From contig NZ_QGNJ01000004.1 of the NCBI RefSeq assembly GCF_003336875.1, positions 124,001 to 188,000 of the forward strand: a stretch of DNA of 64,000 nt, read 5' to 3'. Source of the DNA: Oleisolibacter albus. GTDB taxonomy: Bacteria; Pseudomonadota; Alphaproteobacteria; Azospirillales; Azospirillaceae. Below the pieces are notes generated by a model. It was not told where the DNA came from. It saw only the letters and a list, made by a program, of their open reading frames with translations, and did no database searches. Below are positions 47,038 through 54,546 of the stretch, piece by piece; within the stretch, counting starts at the first letter, position 1; every line of letters begins with the position of its first letter. The translations under genes and the position numbers were made by a program.

Positions 47038-48702
47038 TCAGCCCGACGGATCAACGGGGGGAGGGCCCGGTGGGCCGGCGGGGGGAAGGATGGCGCCGGC
47101 CCGGGCTGCCAGGATGAACCGGTCGAACCGGGCCGCCGTCCGGTCCAAGGCGGACCGGACAACCCGGTCATAGTGTCCGCTGGCCGCGGCCCTGGACTGC
47201 CGCAGGCGTTCCACGTCGTCGATGAGTGCCAGCGCGGCCGCCACATAGCCGTCCGGTGTCGCAGTCACCAGCTCGTCCCGCTGCAACAGGGCCAGGATCG
47301 ACGCGGTCGTCCGTGCCGAGGGGAGCGCCCCGCACAGCGTCAGCACCGGCACACCCTGGGACAGCGCATCCAGGCTGACCAGCCCGCCGCTGTAGGGATA
47401 GGTGTCCAGGGCCAGATCGATATCCCGATGGCGCGCCAGATAGGGGGCAAGGGCTTCGCGGCCCTCGAAGCGGAGTCGATGCGGCGCGATCCCGAAATCC
47501 GCCATCCGCCGCAACACCCGGCGTTCGACGCCCGGGTCGGCATAGAGATCGTCCTTCAGGATCAGCTCCGTCGCCGGTCTGGCCGCCATGATCCGGCCCC
47601 ACATCGCCAGCAGCGGGTCGGACAGCTTCTCCGCCCGGGCGAAGCAGCCGAGCCTGACCGGACCGGGGGGATCGCGCGGGGGCTCATCCCCCTCGGGGGC
47701 CGGCTGGAGGTCGCACAGGGTCGGGCAGGGGACATCCACCAGGGCTTCCGGGAACAGGTGCCGCTCCGACCGGGGGGCCAGCACCGGGTCGGTGACCAGC
47801 GCGTCGATCCCCGGCGTCCCCGGTCCGGGAAGGTACCCCCAGGCCGAAACCTGCACCGGGGCCGGCCGCAGGGCGAACAGGCCCAGCCGGTTGCCGGAGG
47901 TATGCCCGTCCAGGTCGACCAGGATATCGACGGCATCGGCGCGGATCAGGCGGGCCGCTTCCTCGTCGCTCAGGCCCACCAGGGACCGCCACCCGTCCAC
48001 CGCCAGCCGCAGCCGGACGGTCATCCCGTCCCGGCGCGGGCTGCCCGAATAGCAGGTGATCCTGACCCGGCCGCGGTCGTGACGCTCGATCAGCGGCACG
48101 AAGACCCTGGCGGCGGCATGGGAGCGGAAGCAGGCCGAGACATAGCCCACATGCACACGGCCCTGCGGGTCCGCCGGCGGCGGGACCGCCCTGGCCGCTC
48201 CCGGAAAGATCCCGCGCTGCAACGCCTTCAGCCCGGCCGTCGTCGCCCCCGGGTCGAGGGAGGCGGCATAGATGATGTTCGAGGCCGTCAGGCGGTCCGT
48301 CGGGTCGATCCGGCACGCTTCCCGCCAGGTCTCGACGGCCCCGGCAAGGTCACCAAGCTGCATCAGGGCGTTCCCCCGCTCCCTCAGCAGCCGGCTGGTC
48401 CTCGTGCCCGTGGCAAGGGCCCGGTCCGTCCGCGCCAGCGCCAGCGTGGGGCGGGACAGCCGCACCGCTATCCGCGCGGCGTCCGTCATCAGGTCCGGGT
48501 CGTCCGGGTGGTCGGCGAGGGCGGCCGCCAGCGTCCCCTCGGCCACGGCGTAGTCGCCGGCAAGGGCCTGTGCCCGCGCCAGCGCAAGCCTGGCCCCGGG
48601 GCCGGCACGGCGCAGCAGGTCGAACGCTTCCGTGAAGGCCCCGGCCTGCGCCAGCCGCCAGCCTTCCGCCAGGATCCTGTCCCGGCCCGCCTGATCGGAC
48701 AT
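47038..48702 (-). CDS. TPR + SPINDLY-type (GT41) O-linked glycosyltransferase
   Basis: 554 residues from the ATG at 48702, which overlaps the kinase stop by 1 nt (TGATG). Residues about 1-150 hold helical TPR-like repeats (ILAEGWRLAQAGAFTEAFDL, NALMQLGDLAGAVETWREAC). From about residue 165 is the GT41 catalytic region: VHVGYVSACFRSHAAARVFV, VDILVDLDGHTSGNRLGLFA, RPAPVQVSAWGYLPGPGTPG and LDTYPYSGGLVSLDALSQGV. These match OGT/SPINDLY, which transfer GlcNAc or fucose to Ser/Thr hydroxyls. It is the last gene of the peptide-linked operon, so the peptide core is an attractive acceptor. Sugar donor unknown. Convergent with chaC. Confidence 0.9.
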   Translation of the reverse strand: MSDQAGRDRILAEGWRLAQAGAFTEAFDLLRRAGPGARLALARAQALAGDYAVAEGTLAAALADHPDDPDLMTDAARIAVRLSRPTLALARTDRALATGTRTSRLLRERGNALMQLGDLAGAVETWREACRIDPTDRLTASNIIYAASLDPGATTAGLKALQRGIFPGAARAVPPPADPQGRVHVGYVSACFRSHAAARVFVPLIERHDRGRVRITCYSGSPRRDGMTVRLRLAVDGWRSLVGLSDEEAARLIRADAVDILVDLDGHTSGNRLGLFALRPAPVQVSAWGYLPGPGTPGIDALVTDPVLAPRSERHLFPEALVDVPCPTLCDLQPAPEGDEPPRDPPGPVRLGCFARAEKLSDPLLAMWGRIMAARPATELILKDDLYADPGVERRVLRRMADFGIAPHRLRFEGREALAPYLARHRDIDLALDTYPYSGGLVSLDALSQGVPVLTLCGALPSARTTASILALLQRDELVTATPDGYVAAALALIDDVERLRQSRAAASGHYDRVVRSALDRTAARFDRFILAARAGAILPPAGPPGPPPVDPSG

Positions 48703-49643
48703 CAGGGGCATGGGGCTGCGCCGCCGGCCATGGCGGCGAGATGGGCCGCAAAGCCTGGCAGCCGGTCGAGCCCGTCGGGGGCCGAAACCGAGAATACCGG
48801 GACGGCCGCGCAAAGGTCCGCCACAGACGCCAGCAGATCCCTCCGGCTTCCCAGCAGGGGGGCGACCGAAAGCCCGGTCACATGGGACAGGAGCATCGGC
48901 ACGGCCAGGGCCGGCGGCAGCCGCTTGATGGACCCGCTGCCGGGCTGGCGCCCGGTGAGAAGCACGACGGCGCCGATCCGGACCGGTTCCGGGGACAGCC
49001 CCGCGGGGATGGGCAGGCGCACCTTGCCGTCGGCCGTCGGCGCGCCCCGCAGCGCCAGGGCGTCGGCGGCATCGGGCAGCAGGCGGAGCGCGGGGAAGAC
49101 CGGCCGCAGAACCGGGCCGTCCGGCCCCGGCTCCGGTGCGCACAGGTCGTCGGCCACAACCACGCCGCCGGCCTTCATCAGGGCCGCCAGCAGGGTGGAC
49201 TTGCCCCTGCCGCTGGCGCCGTGGACAAGGATGGCCCGTTCCCCGACCGACACCGCGCCGGCATGCAGCGGCAGCCGGTCCCTGTACAGCAGGGCCGCGG
49301 ACAGGGCAGCGCCGGGGATGAAGTCCAGGGCCTCGTCGATCTGGGCGGCTGTCCGCCCCCAGACCGTCAGCGCCCGGCCGGCGCGGAGATGCAGCCGCCC
49401 GCCCAGGGGGGGCTGGACAAGCCACGCATCGCCGCCGACGGCCCAGTTCGGCCCCCGGGTCGCTTCCCCCTGGATGTCGGGCGGGGCGCCGGTCCTGACG
49501 ATCCGGATGGTCAGGTCGGCCGGTCCGTCCCCGGCCGGCAGGGCCGGAAGCCGAAGCGGCGACAGGATATTCAGTCCGCCGACCGCATGGGAAAACCATT
49601 GCGTCCCCTGCGCGCCGGCCGGCAGGCGGGGCCCGTCAGGCAT
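48702..49643 (-). CDS. HprK-related P-loop kinase (peptide kinase-like)
   Basis: 313 residues from the ATG at 49643, which overlaps the PqqD-like gene by 8 nt. The C-terminal half shows the HPr kinase-like signature LPLHAGAVSVGERAILVHG, then Walker A GASGRGKST and an Asp pair in VVVADDLCAP, as in lasso-peptide kinases (ThcoK/PadeK) and HprK-like proteins. The N-terminal region (about residues 1-115) is unrelated to the HprK regulatory domain. Such kinases phosphorylate Ser side chains; in lasso systems the target is the C-terminal Ser of the precursor. Both peptides encoded upstream end in Ser. HPr itself is not encoded here. Kinase activity is inferred, not shown. Confidence 0.75.
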   Translation of the reverse strand: MPDGPRLPAGAQGTQWFSHAVGGLNILSPLRLPALPAGDGPADLTIRIVRTGAPPDIQGEATRGPNWAVGGDAWLVQPPLGGRLHLRAGRALTVWGRTAAQIDEALDFIPGAALSAALLYRDRLPLHAGAVSVGERAILVHGASGRGKSTLLAALMKAGGVVVADDLCAPEPGPDGPVLRPVFPALRLLPDAADALALRGAPTADGKVRLPIPAGLSPEPVRIGAVVLLTGRQPGSGSIKRLPPALAVPMLLSHVTGLSVAPLLGSRRDLLASVADLCAAVPVFSVSAPDGLDRLPGFAAHLAAMAGGAAPCP

Positions 49644-49935
49644 CCGCCACCGGGGGGGCGGCCAGCAGCCCGGCCTCTTCAAGGCTGTTGAGGAAGGTCA
49701 GCACGTCGGCAAGGCAGGTGGCCGCGTCCACGTCGTACATCTTGCCCAGGCGGGCGCAGATATCACGGACCGCCATGGGCGACGTGATCAGGGCGCCGAT
49801 CCGGCTGCCCGTGGCCCCCAACGCGGCATAGGTGCCGGTCTCCGCGTTCAGGAGCACGGTTTCCCCGTCGATTTCGGTTTGCAGCAGCCCGCTGGCCAGG
49901 GCCACGATGCTGTCCGCTGTCATTGTCCGTCCCAT
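49636..49935 (-). CDS. PqqD-family peptide-binding protein (RRE-like)
   Basis: 99 residues from the ATG at 49935, with AGGGGGAGC just upstream; an ATG four codons later (49923) is possible. LLQTEIDGETVLLNAETGTY, followed by AALGATGSRIGALI, is the PqqD winged-helix pattern. The C-terminal helices are rich in Asp/Leu (VDAATCLADVLTFLNSLEEA). PqqD proteins bind RiPP leader peptides and present them to modifying enzymes. Here it would recognise the conserved 40-residue leader. It precedes the HprK-like gene with an 8-nt overlap. Confidence 0.8.
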   Translation of the reverse strand: MGRTMTADSIVALASGLLQTEIDGETVLLNAETGTYAALGATGSRIGALITSPMAVRDICARLGKMYDVDAATCLADVLTFLNSLEEAGLLAAPPVADA

Positions 49936-49969: not shown

Positions 49970-50830
49970 TCAGGCCGCCAGGGGCTTGCGCCAGGCGACA
50001 CAGGTCCAGTCCACCGTCTCCAGCGGGGCCTGGATGCCCTTCGTCAGCCGGAAGGCCTCGATGGCGAACCGGCAGCCGGGCAGCGCACCATAATCGTCCA
50101 CGATGACATATCCCCCGGGGGTGACCTTGCCATAGAGCGCGGAAAGCGTATCCAGGGTCGAGGTGAACAGGTCCCCGTCCAGGCGCAGGACCGCCAGGGA
50201 CTCGACCGGCAGGGTCGGAAGCGTGTCCGCGAACAGGCCTTCGACCAGGACGACATCGTCCCCCCACAGGCCGAAGCGGCGGAACGCCTCCTCGACCAGG
50301 GGCCGCTGTATGGCCAGTTCGGGCCGGTCCGACAGCGCGACGCCGGCATCGGCGGGATGGCTCGGCGGCGGCACCCCGGCAAAGCTGTCGGCCAGCCAGA
50401 CACGGCGGCCAGCCGCCCCATGGGCCTTGAAGAAGCCGCTGGCGAACAGGCCGCAGCCGCCGCGCCAGACCCCGGCCTCCAGGAAATCGCCGGCGATCCC
50501 GTCCTCGAGTATCTGCGCCAGGCACCGTTCCAGGTGGTCCAGGCGGAGGCGTCCGCTCATCGTGAAGGCGCAGTCAAGGCCGATATCATCGCGGGAGGTC
50601 CGCCCTTCCTGCCGCCGCCGGGCCAGGGCCGCGAAGCGGTCCGCCTGAAGCAGCCGGATATCCCGCAGGACGATGCGATCCGGTGTCGTCCCCGACCGGG
50701 CGCACTCATGCAGGTAGGCGATACGCAGCTCGGCTTCCAGCCCTGTCTCGTTCAACAGGACCTTCTTCAGCAGGTCGAGATAGAGGCTGGCCGGATCGCA
50801 GGCCCGGGCGGGTTCCGGAACCGGGCTCAC
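49970..50830 (-). CDS. TylF/MycF-family O-methyltransferase
   Basis: 286 residues from a GTG at 50830 that overlaps the CmcI-like stop by 4 nt (GTGA). TylF family features: MSGRLRLDHLERCLAQILED and GIAGDFLEAGVWRGGCGLFA (SAM motif I, with the acidic ExGVWRGG), then VWLADSFAGVPPPSHPADAG, LRLDGDLFTSTLDTLSALYG and GGYVIVDDYGALPGCRFAIE, whose Asp residues ligate Mg2+. Characterised TylF/MycF enzymes methylate sugar hydroxyls of macrolides. With a glycosyltransferase in the same operon, a methylated sugar on the peptide is plausible. Confidence 0.88.
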   Translation of the reverse strand: MSPVPEPARACDPASLYLDLLKKVLLNETGLEAELRIAYLHECARSGTTPDRIVLRDIRLLQADRFAALARRRQEGRTSRDDIGLDCAFTMSGRLRLDHLERCLAQILEDGIAGDFLEAGVWRGGCGLFASGFFKAHGAAGRRVWLADSFAGVPPPSHPADAGVALSDRPELAIQRPLVEEAFRRFGLWGDDVVLVEGLFADTLPTLPVESLAVLRLDGDLFTSTLDTLSALYGKVTPGGYVIVDDYGALPGCRFAIEAFRLTKGIQAPLETVDWTCVAWRKPLAA

Positions 50831-51555
50831 AGCGCCGTTCCGCCGTCCGCAGCGGTTTCGCGGCGGCGCAGGTACCCGCCTGCGTTCAGCGAGAGCAGGA
50901 ACCGCTCACAGCTCCGGTCCACCTCGAATTCGGGATGGCGCGCCAGGAAGAAGGCGGCCGCTTCCGCCGGCCCCGGCCCGTGTTCCGGCTGGTTCGGCCG
51001 GCCATTGACATGGGTGTCCTCGGCGATCAGGTATCCGCCCGGCCGCACCAGGGGGGCATAGGCCTCCAATTCGTCCAGCACATGCAGCAGACGGTGGTCG
51101 CTGTCCAGGATCACCAGGACCTCCGGCGCGGCAGCGTCGGGACCCGCGTCGTTCCGACTCGCGGCGGCGCGTGCGCGCACGGCGTCGAGGATTTCCGGGC
51201 TGGTCGTGCTGCCGGCGAGGAACTCCAGCCGGGGATGGGCCGGCAGGTCGGCGCCCGGGCCATTGCGGAGGTCGATGCTGACGACCCGGCCATGGCCGAC
51301 AAGGTCGCAGACAGAGGCCAGGAACAGGGCGCTGCCGCCCTTGTGCGTCCCGCATTCCACGATCAGGTCCGGGCGGCGGCGGACGATGATCTCCTGGTAT
51401 ATCCACAGGTCGGTCGGATATTTGATCGCCGTGCGGCCCAGCCAGTCGCAATGCAGCGACCGGCGGCCATCGATGAACCGCTGGTGGACAAGGCGCATAT
51501 AGGCCTGGACCACATCCTGCTCGTGCGCGGACAGATCGTCGCCAAGGGGAGACAC
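50827..51555 (-). CDS. CmcI-family methyltransferase/hydroxylase-like protein
   Basis: 242 residues from the GTG at 51555 (GGAAGG 5 nt upstream). An ATG at 51609 would start inside the duplicated spacer with no ribosome-binding site. The sequence matches the cephalosporin hydroxylase (CmcI) family: WLGRTAIKYPTDLWIYQEII, PDLIVECGTHKGGSALFLAS (motif I), VVSIDLRN, LVILDSDHRLLHVLDELEAY and GGYLIAEDTHVNGRPNQPEH. CmcI acts in cephamycin 7-methoxylation, and homologues occur in sugar and polysaccharide loci. It is the first tailoring gene after the peptide genes. Confidence 0.85.
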   Translation of the reverse strand: MSPLGDDLSAHEQDVVQAYMRLVHQRFIDGRRSLHCDWLGRTAIKYPTDLWIYQEIIVRRRPDLIVECGTHKGGSALFLASVCDLVGHGRVVSIDLRNGPGADLPAHPRLEFLAGSTTSPEILDAVRARAAASRNDAGPDAAAPEVLVILDSDHRLLHVLDELEAYAPLVRPGGYLIAEDTHVNGRPNQPEHGPGPAEAAAFFLARHPEFEVDRSCERFLLSLNAGGYLRRRETAADGGTAL

Positions 51556-51642
51556 GTCAACCTTCCCGACTGGAGGCCCGCAACGGACGGCCCTGGTGCC
51601 GGCAACCATGCGCCGGTGTGGAGAATGACAGGTGGATGCCGA

Positions 51643-51804
51643 TTATGAGCCCATGCACGCGTCCGATGATAGGCTGGGGCCCATCTGCGTTTCACGCAGG
51701 TTCATCACCGTGGCGACCGGTGCCGTCCACGGCAGCCGCTCCGCGTGGAGATCCGTTCCAGAAACGCCGATCGGGGCCTCTTCGTTCTTGCCAGCGATGC
51801 GCAT
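51643..51804 (-). CDS. Candidate RiPP precursor peptide A
   Basis: 53-residue peptide from the ATG at 51804, with a strong GGAGG and 8-nt spacing, ending in TAA. It is too short for a usual gene caller. The leader begins MRIAGKNEEAPIG; it ends PWTAPVATVMNLRETQ and has an aromatic-x-x-Pro (WTAP) resembling the RRE-contact motif YxxP of lasso leaders. The last 13 residues, MGPSLSSDACMGS, are the putative core. Relative to peptide B, only Ile3/Val3 differs in the first 40 residues, while 8 of the last 13 differ. It lies 87 bp before the CmcI-like gene on the same strand and is probably the first gene of the tailoring operon. Non-canonical: no Lan/YcaO/lasso cyclase nearby. Confidence 0.75.
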   Translation of the reverse strand: MRIAGKNEEAPIGVSGTDLHAERLPWTAPVATVMNLRETQMGPSLSSDACMGS

Positions 51805-51839
51805 AGAAAATACCTCCAAAGTAAAAATTGTCTCGAAAG

Positions 51840-51868
51840 ATGTAATTCCTCGGCGGAGTGCGGGTCAA
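51840..51868 (-). promoter_or_regulatory. Candidate promoter of peptide A and the tailoring operon
   Basis: TTGACC (51868-51863), a 17-nt spacer and TTACAT (51845-51840), in the duplicated spacer between the nrdJ tail and the peptide ATG. The same hexamers and spacing occur in unit B. Confidence 0.45.
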
Positions 51869-51901
51869 GCAATCCTTATCGGTCTGCGTATATTGATCTG
51901 C

Positions 51902-51969
51902 TCACCCGCTGCATCTGCTGTAGCCACAGCTGGGGCAGAGGTCGCCGCCTTCCTGGCGGACCGCCCCGG
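51902..51969 (-). pseudogene. Duplicated 3' end of nrdJ
   Basis: 68 bp copied from the nrdJ C-terminus. Read in frame it gives VRQEGGDLCPSCGYSRCSG and the stop at 51902. The intact gene has Cys where this copy has the second Gly (EGCDLC versus EGGDLC), so a zinc-type Cys is lost. It has no start and is a by-product of the duplication that created the second peptide gene. Confidence 0.9.
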
Positions 51970-51970
51970 T

Positions 51971-52008
51971 GCCGGCAACCATTCGCCGGTGTGAGAATGG
52001 TTGCCGGC
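51971..52008 (-). other. Perfect 13-bp hairpin between the two peptide genes
   Basis: GCCGGCAACCATT (51971-51983) pairs fully with AATGGTTGCCGGC (51996-52008), 12-nt loop. It begins 6 bp past the peptide B stop. No U-tract follows on the minus strand, so it is not a textbook terminator. It may slow decay of the peptide B message or partly insulate it from the operon. In unit A the right arm is changed and the stem is lost. Confidence 0.7.
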
Positions 52009-52013
52009 GTCAC

Positions 52014-52175
52014 TCACGACGTAGCGCAAGCCTCCGCTGATGGGGTGGAGCCCAACTGCGTTTCACGCAGGTTCATCACCGTGGCGACCGGTGCCGTCCA
52101 CGGCAGCCGCTCCGCGTGGAGGTCCGTTCCAGAAACGCCGATCGGGGCTTCTTCGTTCTTGCCAGCGACGCGCAT
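52014..52175 (-). CDS. Candidate RiPP precursor peptide B
   Basis: 53 residues from the ATG at 52175, GGAGG with 8-nt spacing, TGA stop at 52014. The leader is that of peptide A with Val3 instead of Ile3; only three of its 120 nt differ. The last 13 residues are LGSTPSAEACATS. Aligned with MGPSLSSDACMGS of peptide A the shared positions are Gly2, Ser6, Ala9, Cys10 and Ser13, with Asp/Glu at 8. It sits between intact nrdJ (97 bp) and the copied nrdJ tail, on the same strand as the tailoring genes. Precursor identity is inferred from arrangement and divergence pattern; the product is unknown. Confidence 0.75.
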   Translation of the reverse strand: MRVAGKNEEAPIGVSGTDLHAERLPWTAPVATVMNLRETQLGSTPSAEACATS

Positions 52176-52210
52176 AGAAAATACCTCCAAAGTAACGATA
52201 GTCTCGAAAG

Positions 52211-52239
52211 ATGTAATTCCCCGGCGGGGTGCGGGTCAA
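52211..52239 (-). promoter_or_regulatory. Candidate promoter of peptide B
   Basis: TTGACC (52239-52234), 17-nt spacer and TTACAT (52216-52211), identical to the unit A elements and preserved in spite of spacer substitutions. Confidence 0.45.
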
Positions 52240-52272
52240 GCAATCCTTATCGGTCTGCGTATATTGATCTGC

Positions 52273-54546
52273 TCACCCGCTGCATCTGCTGTAGCCACAG
52301 CTGGGGCAGAGGTCGCAGCCTTCCTGGCGGACCAGCCCGGGCTGGCCGCAGCGGGGGCAGGGGGCGGGGCGGGCCGCCGTGCCGCCCGTGCCACCCGTGC
52401 CGCCGGTACCGGCCAGGGGGACCGGCTGCGCCAGGAAGCCGATATCCAGCAGATGGCGCTCGATGACGGTGCCGATGGCGGCCAGCAGTGACGGGACGTA
52501 GCGGCCCTGCATCCATTGGCCGCCGCGCGGGTCGAACACGGCCTTCAGCTCCTCCACCACGAAGGCGACGTCACCGCCGCGGCGGAACACGGCCGAGATC
52601 ATGCGCGTCAGCGCCACGGTCCAGGCGTAATGCTCCATGTTCTTGGAATTGATGAACAGCTCGAACGGCCGCCGCCGGCCATCCTCGACCACATCGTTGA
52701 CCGTGATGTAGAGGGCATGGTCGCTTTCGGGCCAGCGCAGCTTGTAGGTCTGGCCCGGCAGCACCTCCGGCCGGTCCAGGGGCGCTCCGGCGGCATCCAG
52801 GGACGGCACCGGCGGTGCCCTGTCGGCCGGGCTTCCGGCCGTGTCCCCCTCTGCCGGCAGCGACAGCACGGCCCCGGTCACCGGGTTGGGCCGATAGGTG
52901 GTGCAGCCCTTGCAGCCCAGGGCGTAGGCCTGGAGATAGATGTCCTGGAAGGCGCTGAAGGGCACGTCGGCGGGGCAGTTGATGGTCTTGCTGATGGCGC
53001 TGTCGACATACTTCTGTGCCGCTGCCTGCATCACCAGATGGGCGGCCGGACTCAGCGTCTGCGCATCGACGAAGGCGTCGGTCAGCGGGGCCGCCTCCCC
53101 GTGCAGCCGCCGGTACAGGCGGTAGGCGTGGTCCTCCACCGTTTCGCTCTGCCGGCTGCCGTCGGGCATCAGCACGGCGCGGTCGTAGCGGAAGGCGAAG
53201 ACCGGCTCGATGCCGCTGGAGACATTGTCGGCCAACAGCGAGATGGTGCCGGTGGGCGCGATCGAGGTCAGCAGAGCATTGCGGATGCCGTGGGCGGCGA
53301 TCTGGCCGCGCAGATCGTCCGGCAGGCCGCGCAGCATGGGCCGGTCCAGATAAAGTGCGCGGTCGAACAGGGGAAAGGAGCCCTTCTCCGCCGCCAGCGC
53401 GGCCGAGCTGCGATAGGCCTGGTCGCGGATGGTCCGCAGCCAGCCTTCGGTCAGCTGCACTGCCCGCTCGCTGCCATAGCGCACGCCGCACAGGATCAGG
53501 GCGTCGGCCAGCCCGGTGACACCCAGCCCGATGCGCCGCTTGGCCCGCGCCTCCGCCGCCTGCGCCTCCAGCGGGAAGCGGGACACATCGATGGCATTGT
53601 CCAGCATGCGCACGGCCAGCGCCACCACCCGCGCCAGCGCAGCCCTGTCCAGATCGGCCTGCGGTGTGAAGGGCTGGCGCACCAGCGCCGCCAGATTGAC
53701 CGACCCCAAAAGGCAGGCGCCATAGGGCGGCAGCGGCTGCTCGCCGCACGGGTTGGTCGCGGCGATATCCTCGCAATAGGACAGGTTGTTCTGCTGGTTG
53801 ATGCGGTCGATGAAGATGACGCCGGGTTCGGCATAGTCGTAGGTGGCGCGCATGATGCGCTCCCACAGGGCCCGCGCCGGCAGCCGGCGGTGGACGCGGC
53901 CGGCGAAGACCAGGTCCCACGGCCCATCGGCCCGCACCGCCTCCATGAAGGCGTCGGTCACCAGCACCGACAGGTTGAAGTTGCGCAGCCGGCCGGGGTC
54001 GCGCTTGGCGTCGATGAACAGTTCGATGTCCGGATGGTCGCAGCGCAGCGTCGCCATCATGGCGCCGCGGCGGCTGCCGGCGCTCATGATGGTGCGGCAC
54101 ATGGCATCCCAGACGTCCATGAAGCTGACGGGGCCGGAGGCGTCGGCCCCGACTCCGGCCACGGCGGCGCCCTTGGGCCGCAGGGTGGAGAAGTCATAGC
54201 CGATGCCGCCGCCCTGCTGCAGGGTCAGCGCCGCCTCGCGCAGATGGGCGAAGATCGACCCCATGTCATCGGGGATGGTGCCCATGACGAAGCAGTTGAA
54301 CAGGGTCACCGACCGGCTGGTGCCGGCACCGGCCAGGATGCGGCCGGCGGGGATGAAGGTGAAGCCGGCCAGGGCATCGTGGAAGCGCGCCGCCCACAGG
54401 GCGGGGTCGGCCTCCGCGGCCGCCAGCGCCGTGGCGACCCGGCGCCAGCTGTCCTCCACCGTCTCGTCCAGCACGCGCCCGTCCGGCTGCTTCAGCCGGT
54501 ATTTCATGTCCCAGATGCGGCGGGAGATGGGGGCGATGTCGGGCAT
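52273..54546 (-). CDS. nrdJ: Adenosylcobalamin-dependent (class II) ribonucleotide reductase
   Basis: Makes deoxyribonucleotides with coenzyme B12 and needs no oxygen. The ATG at 54546 (MPDIAPISRRIWDMKYRLKQ, 757 residues) has GGAG about 8 nt upstream. Key blocks: FVMGTIPDDMGSIFAHLREA, GGGIGYDFSTLRP, the radical-cysteine motif in ATNPCGEQPLPPYGACLLGS, and APTGTISLLADNVSSGIEPV. A C-terminal Cys-rich tail CPRCGQPGLVRQEGCDLC, then CPSCGYSRC, serves as the redox shuttle. Its 3' end is the source of the duplicated fragment at 51902-51969. Confidence 0.95.
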   Translation of the reverse strand: MPDIAPISRRIWDMKYRLKQPDGRVLDETVEDSWRRVATALAAAEADPALWAARFHDALAGFTFIPAGRILAGAGTSRSVTLFNCFVMGTIPDDMGSIFAHLREAALTLQQGGGIGYDFSTLRPKGAAVAGVGADASGPVSFMDVWDAMCRTIMSAGSRRGAMMATLRCDHPDIELFIDAKRDPGRLRNFNLSVLVTDAFMEAVRADGPWDLVFAGRVHRRLPARALWERIMRATYDYAEPGVIFIDRINQQNNLSYCEDIAATNPCGEQPLPPYGACLLGSVNLAALVRQPFTPQADLDRAALARVVALAVRMLDNAIDVSRFPLEAQAAEARAKRRIGLGVTGLADALILCGVRYGSERAVQLTEGWLRTIRDQAYRSSAALAAEKGSFPLFDRALYLDRPMLRGLPDDLRGQIAAHGIRNALLTSIAPTGTISLLADNVSSGIEPVFAFRYDRAVLMPDGSRQSETVEDHAYRLYRRLHGEAAPLTDAFVDAQTLSPAAHLVMQAAAQKYVDSAISKTINCPADVPFSAFQDIYLQAYALGCKGCTTYRPNPVTGAVLSLPAEGDTAGSPADRAPPVPSLDAAGAPLDRPEVLPGQTYKLRWPESDHALYITVNDVVEDGRRRPFELFINSKNMEHYAWTVALTRMISAVFRRGGDVAFVVEELKAVFDPRGGQWMQGRYVPSLLAAIGTVIERHLLDIGFLAQPVPLAGTGGTGGTGGTAARPAPCPRCGQPGLVRQEGCDLCPSCGYSRCSG

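Follow-up and report, generated by a model that had tools for sequence, protein, structure and literature searches.

Tandem lasso-type precursor peptides beside a cyclase-less kinase, glycosyltransferase and methyltransferase operon in Oleisolibacter albus

The DNA analyzed here, referred to as the window, is a stretch of 64,000 nucleotides of Oleisolibacter albus. Two small peptide genes lie in tandem on its minus strand, each with 53 codons and a stop. Peptide B (53 aa) is encoded at 52014..52175 (-), with its leader at 52056-52175 and its core, LGSTPSAEACATS, at 52017-52055. Peptide A (53 aa) is encoded at 51643..51804 (-), with its leader at 51685-51804 and its core, MGPSLSSDACMGS, at 51646-51684. 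The initial annotation had described a tandem pair of 53-residue peptides with GGAGG ribosome-binding sites at identical spacing, and both points hold: the same TTTGGAGGTATTTTCT stands immediately 5' of the ATG in A and B, and in B the GGAGG lies 8 nt before the ATG. Both genes belong to a tandem duplication with a period of 371-373 bp (51584..52325, unstranded), whose unit contains the 3' end of nrdJ, which lies upstream, followed by intergenic DNA, leader, core, and the 5' end of the methyltransferase gene lying downstream. The two copies are 95% identical over 300 nt at a spacing of 371 and 92% identical over a further 37-nt piece. Because the unit reaches into nrdJ and the methyltransferase gene, conserved DNA lies on either side of a diverged block, which consists of the core and about 50 nt beyond the stop. 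A perfect 14-bp inverted repeat (51971..52008, unstranded) occurs between the B stop codon and the start of the methyltransferase gene in its duplicated form, with a fold of -30.6 kcal/mol for 57 nt. It is a possible attenuator, and it resembles a copy of the methyltransferase start region that was inverted locally. This repeat is missing after peptide A.

The leaders of A and B differ at 1 of 40 residues (I/V) and the cores at 8 of 13, as the initial annotation had claimed. The claimed nucleotide contrast is also found, with 3 differences in the 120 nt of the leader and 14 in the 39 nt of the core (Fisher p = 1.4e-7). When leader and core substitutions between A and B were compared, pN was 0.011 in the leader and 0.366 in the core (Fisher p = 1.4e-6). 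Synonymous sites are also elevated in the core (pS 0.34 vs 0.065, Fisher p = 0.03). Because these sites are raised too, the core block probably changed in one piece, by replacement or conversion, and not through point substitutions under selection alone.

The interpretation of the pair as leader/core precursors is supported, and the 40/13 boundary coincides exactly with the cleavage site predicted for a lasso-type precursor (Thr -2, Gln -1). The initial annotation had named neither a RiPP kind nor the adjoining enzymes. The leaders of A and B end in WTAPVATVMNLRETQ and carry a WxxP motif (WTAP) and Thr at -2, while each 13-residue core ends in Ser and has its sole acidic residue at position 8, which is D in one peptide and E in the other. 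A lasso-precursor profile was made from 33 precursors of cyclase-bearing lasso loci (Azospirillaceae, Tistrella, and relatives), with the window peptides left out. Out of the 360 ORFs of 25-130 aa in the window, the profile picks B (E 1.3e-7) and A (7.3e-7) alone, and the next ORF has an E-value of 0.15. The 33 precursors were chosen by eye and include the near-copies L136/L141 and L137/L140, which makes them a biased sample for counting acid and Ser: Ser is the last residue in 31/33, and in the script's register the acid lies at 8 in 23/33 and at 7-9 in 30/33. W is present in the motif of 31 of these 33. The acid falls outside 7-9 in 3/33; for two of these (L134, L175a), reading by eye from a later Thr places it at D8. 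Another O. albus cluster, L005, in which a lasso-type cyclase is present, has a tandem precursor pair of the same geometry, with 13-aa cores, D8, and Ser at the end (leader/core WQAPALSELAMSETR/AGGPGTIDGGIFS and WQAPALSELAMIETQ/NGSSGAFDGTGFS); one of the two weakly matches the NCBI paeninodin family (5.6e-4). Judged from their sequences, A and B are almost certainly RiPP precursors of the lasso lineage.

Five genes, overlapping or nearly so, follow A on the minus strand. The first encodes a CmcI/rhamnosyl O-methyltransferase family protein (50827..51609 (-); PF04989, 175 bits) with 65% identity in Tistrella mobilis. The second overlaps it and encodes a TylF/MycF family sugar O-methyltransferase (49970..50830 (-); PF05711, 289 bits), whose PDB matches include the sugar O-methyltransferases MycF and NovP. 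The third encodes a stand-alone RRE (PqqD fold) of the lasso B1 type (49636..49935 (-)). Its best model is the lasso B1 model NF033536 (lasso PqqD), at 64 bits and below the 80-bit cut-off, and the genome's genuine PqqD is assigned to the PQQ type. In a tree whose deeper branches have no clear order, the RREs of the four CmcI-type clusters form one clade (100/99) among lasso-locus RREs. The fourth gene encodes an HprK-like kinase (48702..49643 (-)) that matches TIGR04352 (30 bits) and PF07475 (20 bits), both below cut-off. It has all eight BsfK motif residues given in the accessible text of PMC10368454, at identical spacing and with an offset of 8 from the BsfK numbering at every position (H140, G155, G158, G160, K161, S162, D178, and D179, numbered from the TTG at 49682). 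An AlphaFold model of the kinase (two rows) was set aside for its mean pLDDT of 50. The fifth gene encodes a TPR + GT41 (OGT/SPINDLY-like) glycosyltransferase (47038..48711 (-); PF13844, 117 bits) with PDB matches to 5djs (OGT-like, the closest, 1e-57), SPINDLY (4e-46), and XcOGT (1e-27). GT41 genes are also found at or near other cyclase-bearing lasso clusters (L125:10415-12334, L131:1809-3866, L012:12835-15585). The operon consists of these five genes only, and neither a lasso protease (B2) nor a lasso cyclase was found in it.

This set of five genes, in unchanged order and with one or two precursors, is present on the Tistrella mobilis plasmid pTM1 (L052) and in two more Tistrella genomes (L197, L198). 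In all three genomes the precursors occupy the corresponding position, ahead of the same gene. Genome G340 has the coordinates of T. mobilis genome G106, and the two were counted once. A CmcI scan of the genome collections returned 73 loci, of which the gene content of the best one, T. mobilis, was examined. At E<=1e-22, the HprK profile had matches in 12 of the 385 genomes from the class. Four of these have the CmcI-type cluster, and in the other eight the match lies in loci with a lasso-type cyclase and without CmcI/TylF. In the phylum sample, 0 of 397 other genomes were matched at E<=1e-30. From the plasmid collection, pTM1 of Tistrella alone was recovered. A peptide search of 59 relatives and 82 family genomes (O. 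albus in both) found no homologue apart from a weak match in G030, which was rejected as chance (E 0.012, 35% identity, an internal stop, and nothing lasso-like around it by eye).

The reading frame is intact in 3/3 Tistrella orthologues, so the frameshifts that would have spoken against coding were not seen there. In the three P1-gene orthologues, pN is 0.09-0.17 in the leader and 0.40-0.72 in the core (first 8 codons), with p = 3e-7, 0.007, and 0.0007. The initial annotation had expected a high dN/dS ratio in the core only. Its first half stands in Tistrella, where core pN exceeds leader pN, but the core synonymous sites diverge too and give no clean dN/dS signature. Core A almost matches the core SGPSLSGDGPCMGS of the Tistrella genome G243, with the shared pattern GPSLSxD...CMGS, and 0 of 2000 shuffles were as good. 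Most codons of these two cores are synonymous yet different. Near-equal core peptides with mostly different codons point to translation and constraint of core A, and its near identity to the core of one Tistrella species indicates that some cores are conserved.

These data bear on two alternative explanations. The first is that the peptides are chance ORFs in duplicated intergenic DNA that diverged neutrally. Non-coding DNA is indeed also inside the duplication, but frame-retaining precursors occupy the same position in three Tistrella genomes, and the profile E-values and the leader/core contrast also argue against chance. This explanation is already contradicted by the homologues and is scarcely credible. 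The second is that a lasso cluster is decaying, with cyclase and protease deleted and peptides that are no longer matured. The missing core enzymes agree with decay, but all five enzymes are intact, their genes overlap or almost overlap, their arrangement is kept in another family at a protein identity of 39-65%, and the amino acids of core A are conserved over mostly different codons. Decay is therefore quite improbable.

Cyclase and B2 are absent from 4/4 CmcI-type loci fetched (O. albus and three Tistrella), and unlinked B2 and lasso-type cyclases are found away from the cluster in 4/4 genomes. O. albus has seven PqqD-family proteins (one of the PQQ type and six non-PQQ RREs), five lasso-type cyclases, and four B2 genes, one of them unlinked. 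Its cyclase clusters L006 and L007 (C23) and L145 (C41) contain B2, and L005 (G000:C40:8000-24000) and L146 (C1) do not. An HprK-like kinase is present in all five of these further lasso-type clusters. The fourth B2 gene (L170, G000:C41) stands alone and adjoins a TonB-receptor-like gene, a name given by eye from its sequence. The C14 asparagine-synthase-like gene of O. albus was dropped as a lasso cyclase because it scores as an XrtA amidotransferase. In Tistrella, PF13471 finds one B2 per genome in 3/3 genomes (L171, L213, L214), with no lasso marker nearby, although in T. mobilis at least six loci with a lasso-type cyclase contain no B2. A precursor-less cyclase is common to the three Tistrella genomes, 94-95% identical and in the same surroundings, and no precursor, RRE, kinase, or other marker lies within approximately 7.8 kb of it; in G243 (L212), a further kinase-RRE pair begins at a distance of 7.9 kb. 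This cyclase scores best against the lasso cyclase model (281 bits, cut-off 525), and in O. albus it matches the L005 cyclase best (40%). Enzymes able to act in trans are thus available in these genomes, and we infer that they act on the A and B peptides; the choice of cyclase is a guess.

By its parts, the cluster works like a paeninodin-type phosphorylated lasso system joined to a sugar/methyl tailoring set. Since cyclase and B2 were looked for and are not in the cluster, it is not a lasso cluster in the strict sense. With the paeninodin type (PadeA/PadeK; pseudomycoidin Psm) it shares the C-terminal Ser, the HprK-like kinase, the RRE, and the WxxP leader, a motif described for this type in the accessible text of PMC13381572. 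It differs in that B2 and cyclase are absent, GT41 replaces the PsmN-type nucleotidyltransferase, and two sugar O-methyltransferases are added. Pseudomycoidin is glycosylated as well as phosphorylated, according to the accessible text of PMC9266682. The Bsf lasso peptide of Bradymonas shares the kinase motif spacing and an Asp8 ring (predicted here), but as far as the accessible text of PMC10368454 describes it, it is phosphorylated at Ser3, has Ile at -2, and has its own B2 in the cluster. Lasso clusters of Azospirillaceae in which HprK, sulfotransferase, and tail-collar genes occur share the kinase, the RRE, and the precursor geometry, but they have their own cyclase, and sulfotransferase and collar proteins stand where CmcI/TylF stand here. 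Next to lasso clusters that bear a kinase, there is a recurrent run of three phage tail-collar domain genes, often accompanied by a sulfotransferase (L011, L013, L127, L131, L133, L137-L140, L143, L144, L150, L153, L157, L158, L202, L205, L206).

The main rival is a linear phospho-glycopeptide, made by a cyclase-less offshoot of the lasso lineage in which the RRE, the kinase, GT41, and the methyltransferases are active, the leader is cut in trans, and no ring is formed. It agrees with the missing cyclase and B2 in all four loci. The LPP clusters of Bacillota likewise have an RRE and an HprK-like kinase without a cyclase, and their products are read as linear in the accessible text of PMC13381572. 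Thr(-2) is not kept in Tistrella either, where Ala occupies the aligned position in 5/5 precursors. In two of these precursors Thr lies one place before the aligned site, and if it is taken as -2 the acid falls at 9. Two further points count against the lasso reading: the lasso-precursor profile attains E 0.01 for just one of the five Tistrella precursors, and the HprK and RRE matches fall short of their curated cut-offs. Ile(-2) in the Bsf lasso peptide is a precedent for another residue at this position (accessible text of PMC10368454). Against the linear product, all seven precursors of the CmcI-type cluster (four genomes) have one acidic core residue each, at 8 in 6/7 and at 9 in 1/7, and this single acid is kept through the D/E exchange between A and B, which is what a macrolactam would require. 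The C-terminal Ser of the paeninodin type is present in 7/7. The leaders are WxxP (WVKP, WVRP, or WVAP in the five Tistrella precursors), not the YxxP of LPP, and neither a signal-peptidase-like protease nor an NTP transferase was found in the operon. As far as the accessible text of PMC13381572 goes, LPP clusters have both, the former being LppS, whereas the cluster here has GT41, methyltransferases, and a single acid at core position 8. A linear product is accordingly considered unlikely, though less so than decay.

The lasso reading is therefore retained, and the product is somewhat favored to be a lasso peptide of predicted topology that is tied in trans and phosphorylated, with probable glycosylation and methylation. 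Its phosphorylation is likely, cyclization in trans is reasonably probable, and glycosylation with methylation of the sugar is slightly favored. In the proposed mechanism, the RRE would bind WxxP and present the precursor. The HprK-like kinase would phosphorylate a Ser, with the C-terminal Ser as the likeliest site, by analogy with paeninodin. Cleavage after Gln40 would fall to an unlinked B2 protease, and a lasso cyclase from another locus would join residue 1 to Asp/Glu 8, giving an 8-residue ring and a 5-residue tail. The sugar that GT41 would put on Ser/Thr (or Cys) would be the methylation substrate of the CmcI- and TylF-type enzymes. With the precursor gene duplicated in tandem and its core block replaced, one machinery would yield two products.

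From these data, it can be tentatively hypothesized that lasso biosynthesis in these bacteria is distributed, so that clusters with nothing but precursor, RRE, and tailoring genes (kinase, OGT-like GT41, two sugar O-methyltransferases) would pass their precursors to an unlinked protease and to a precursor-less cyclase that the whole genome shares. On this hypothesis, and as tentatively, one Tistrella B2 may serve every lasso cluster, and the product here may be a 13-residue phosphorylated lasso with an O-methylated sugar. In the open literature searched, outside which most subscription papers fall, no precedent was found for an OGT-like glycosyltransferase with two sugar methyltransferases on a lasso-type peptide, and the combination would be a new tailoring set for such peptides. 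Lasso mining commonly begins at a cyclase or B2 gene adjoining the precursor, and a cluster like that of A and B would be overlooked. If the action in trans is true, the lasso enzymes of one genome must take several leaders, which would make RRE specificity and enzyme sharing directly testable.
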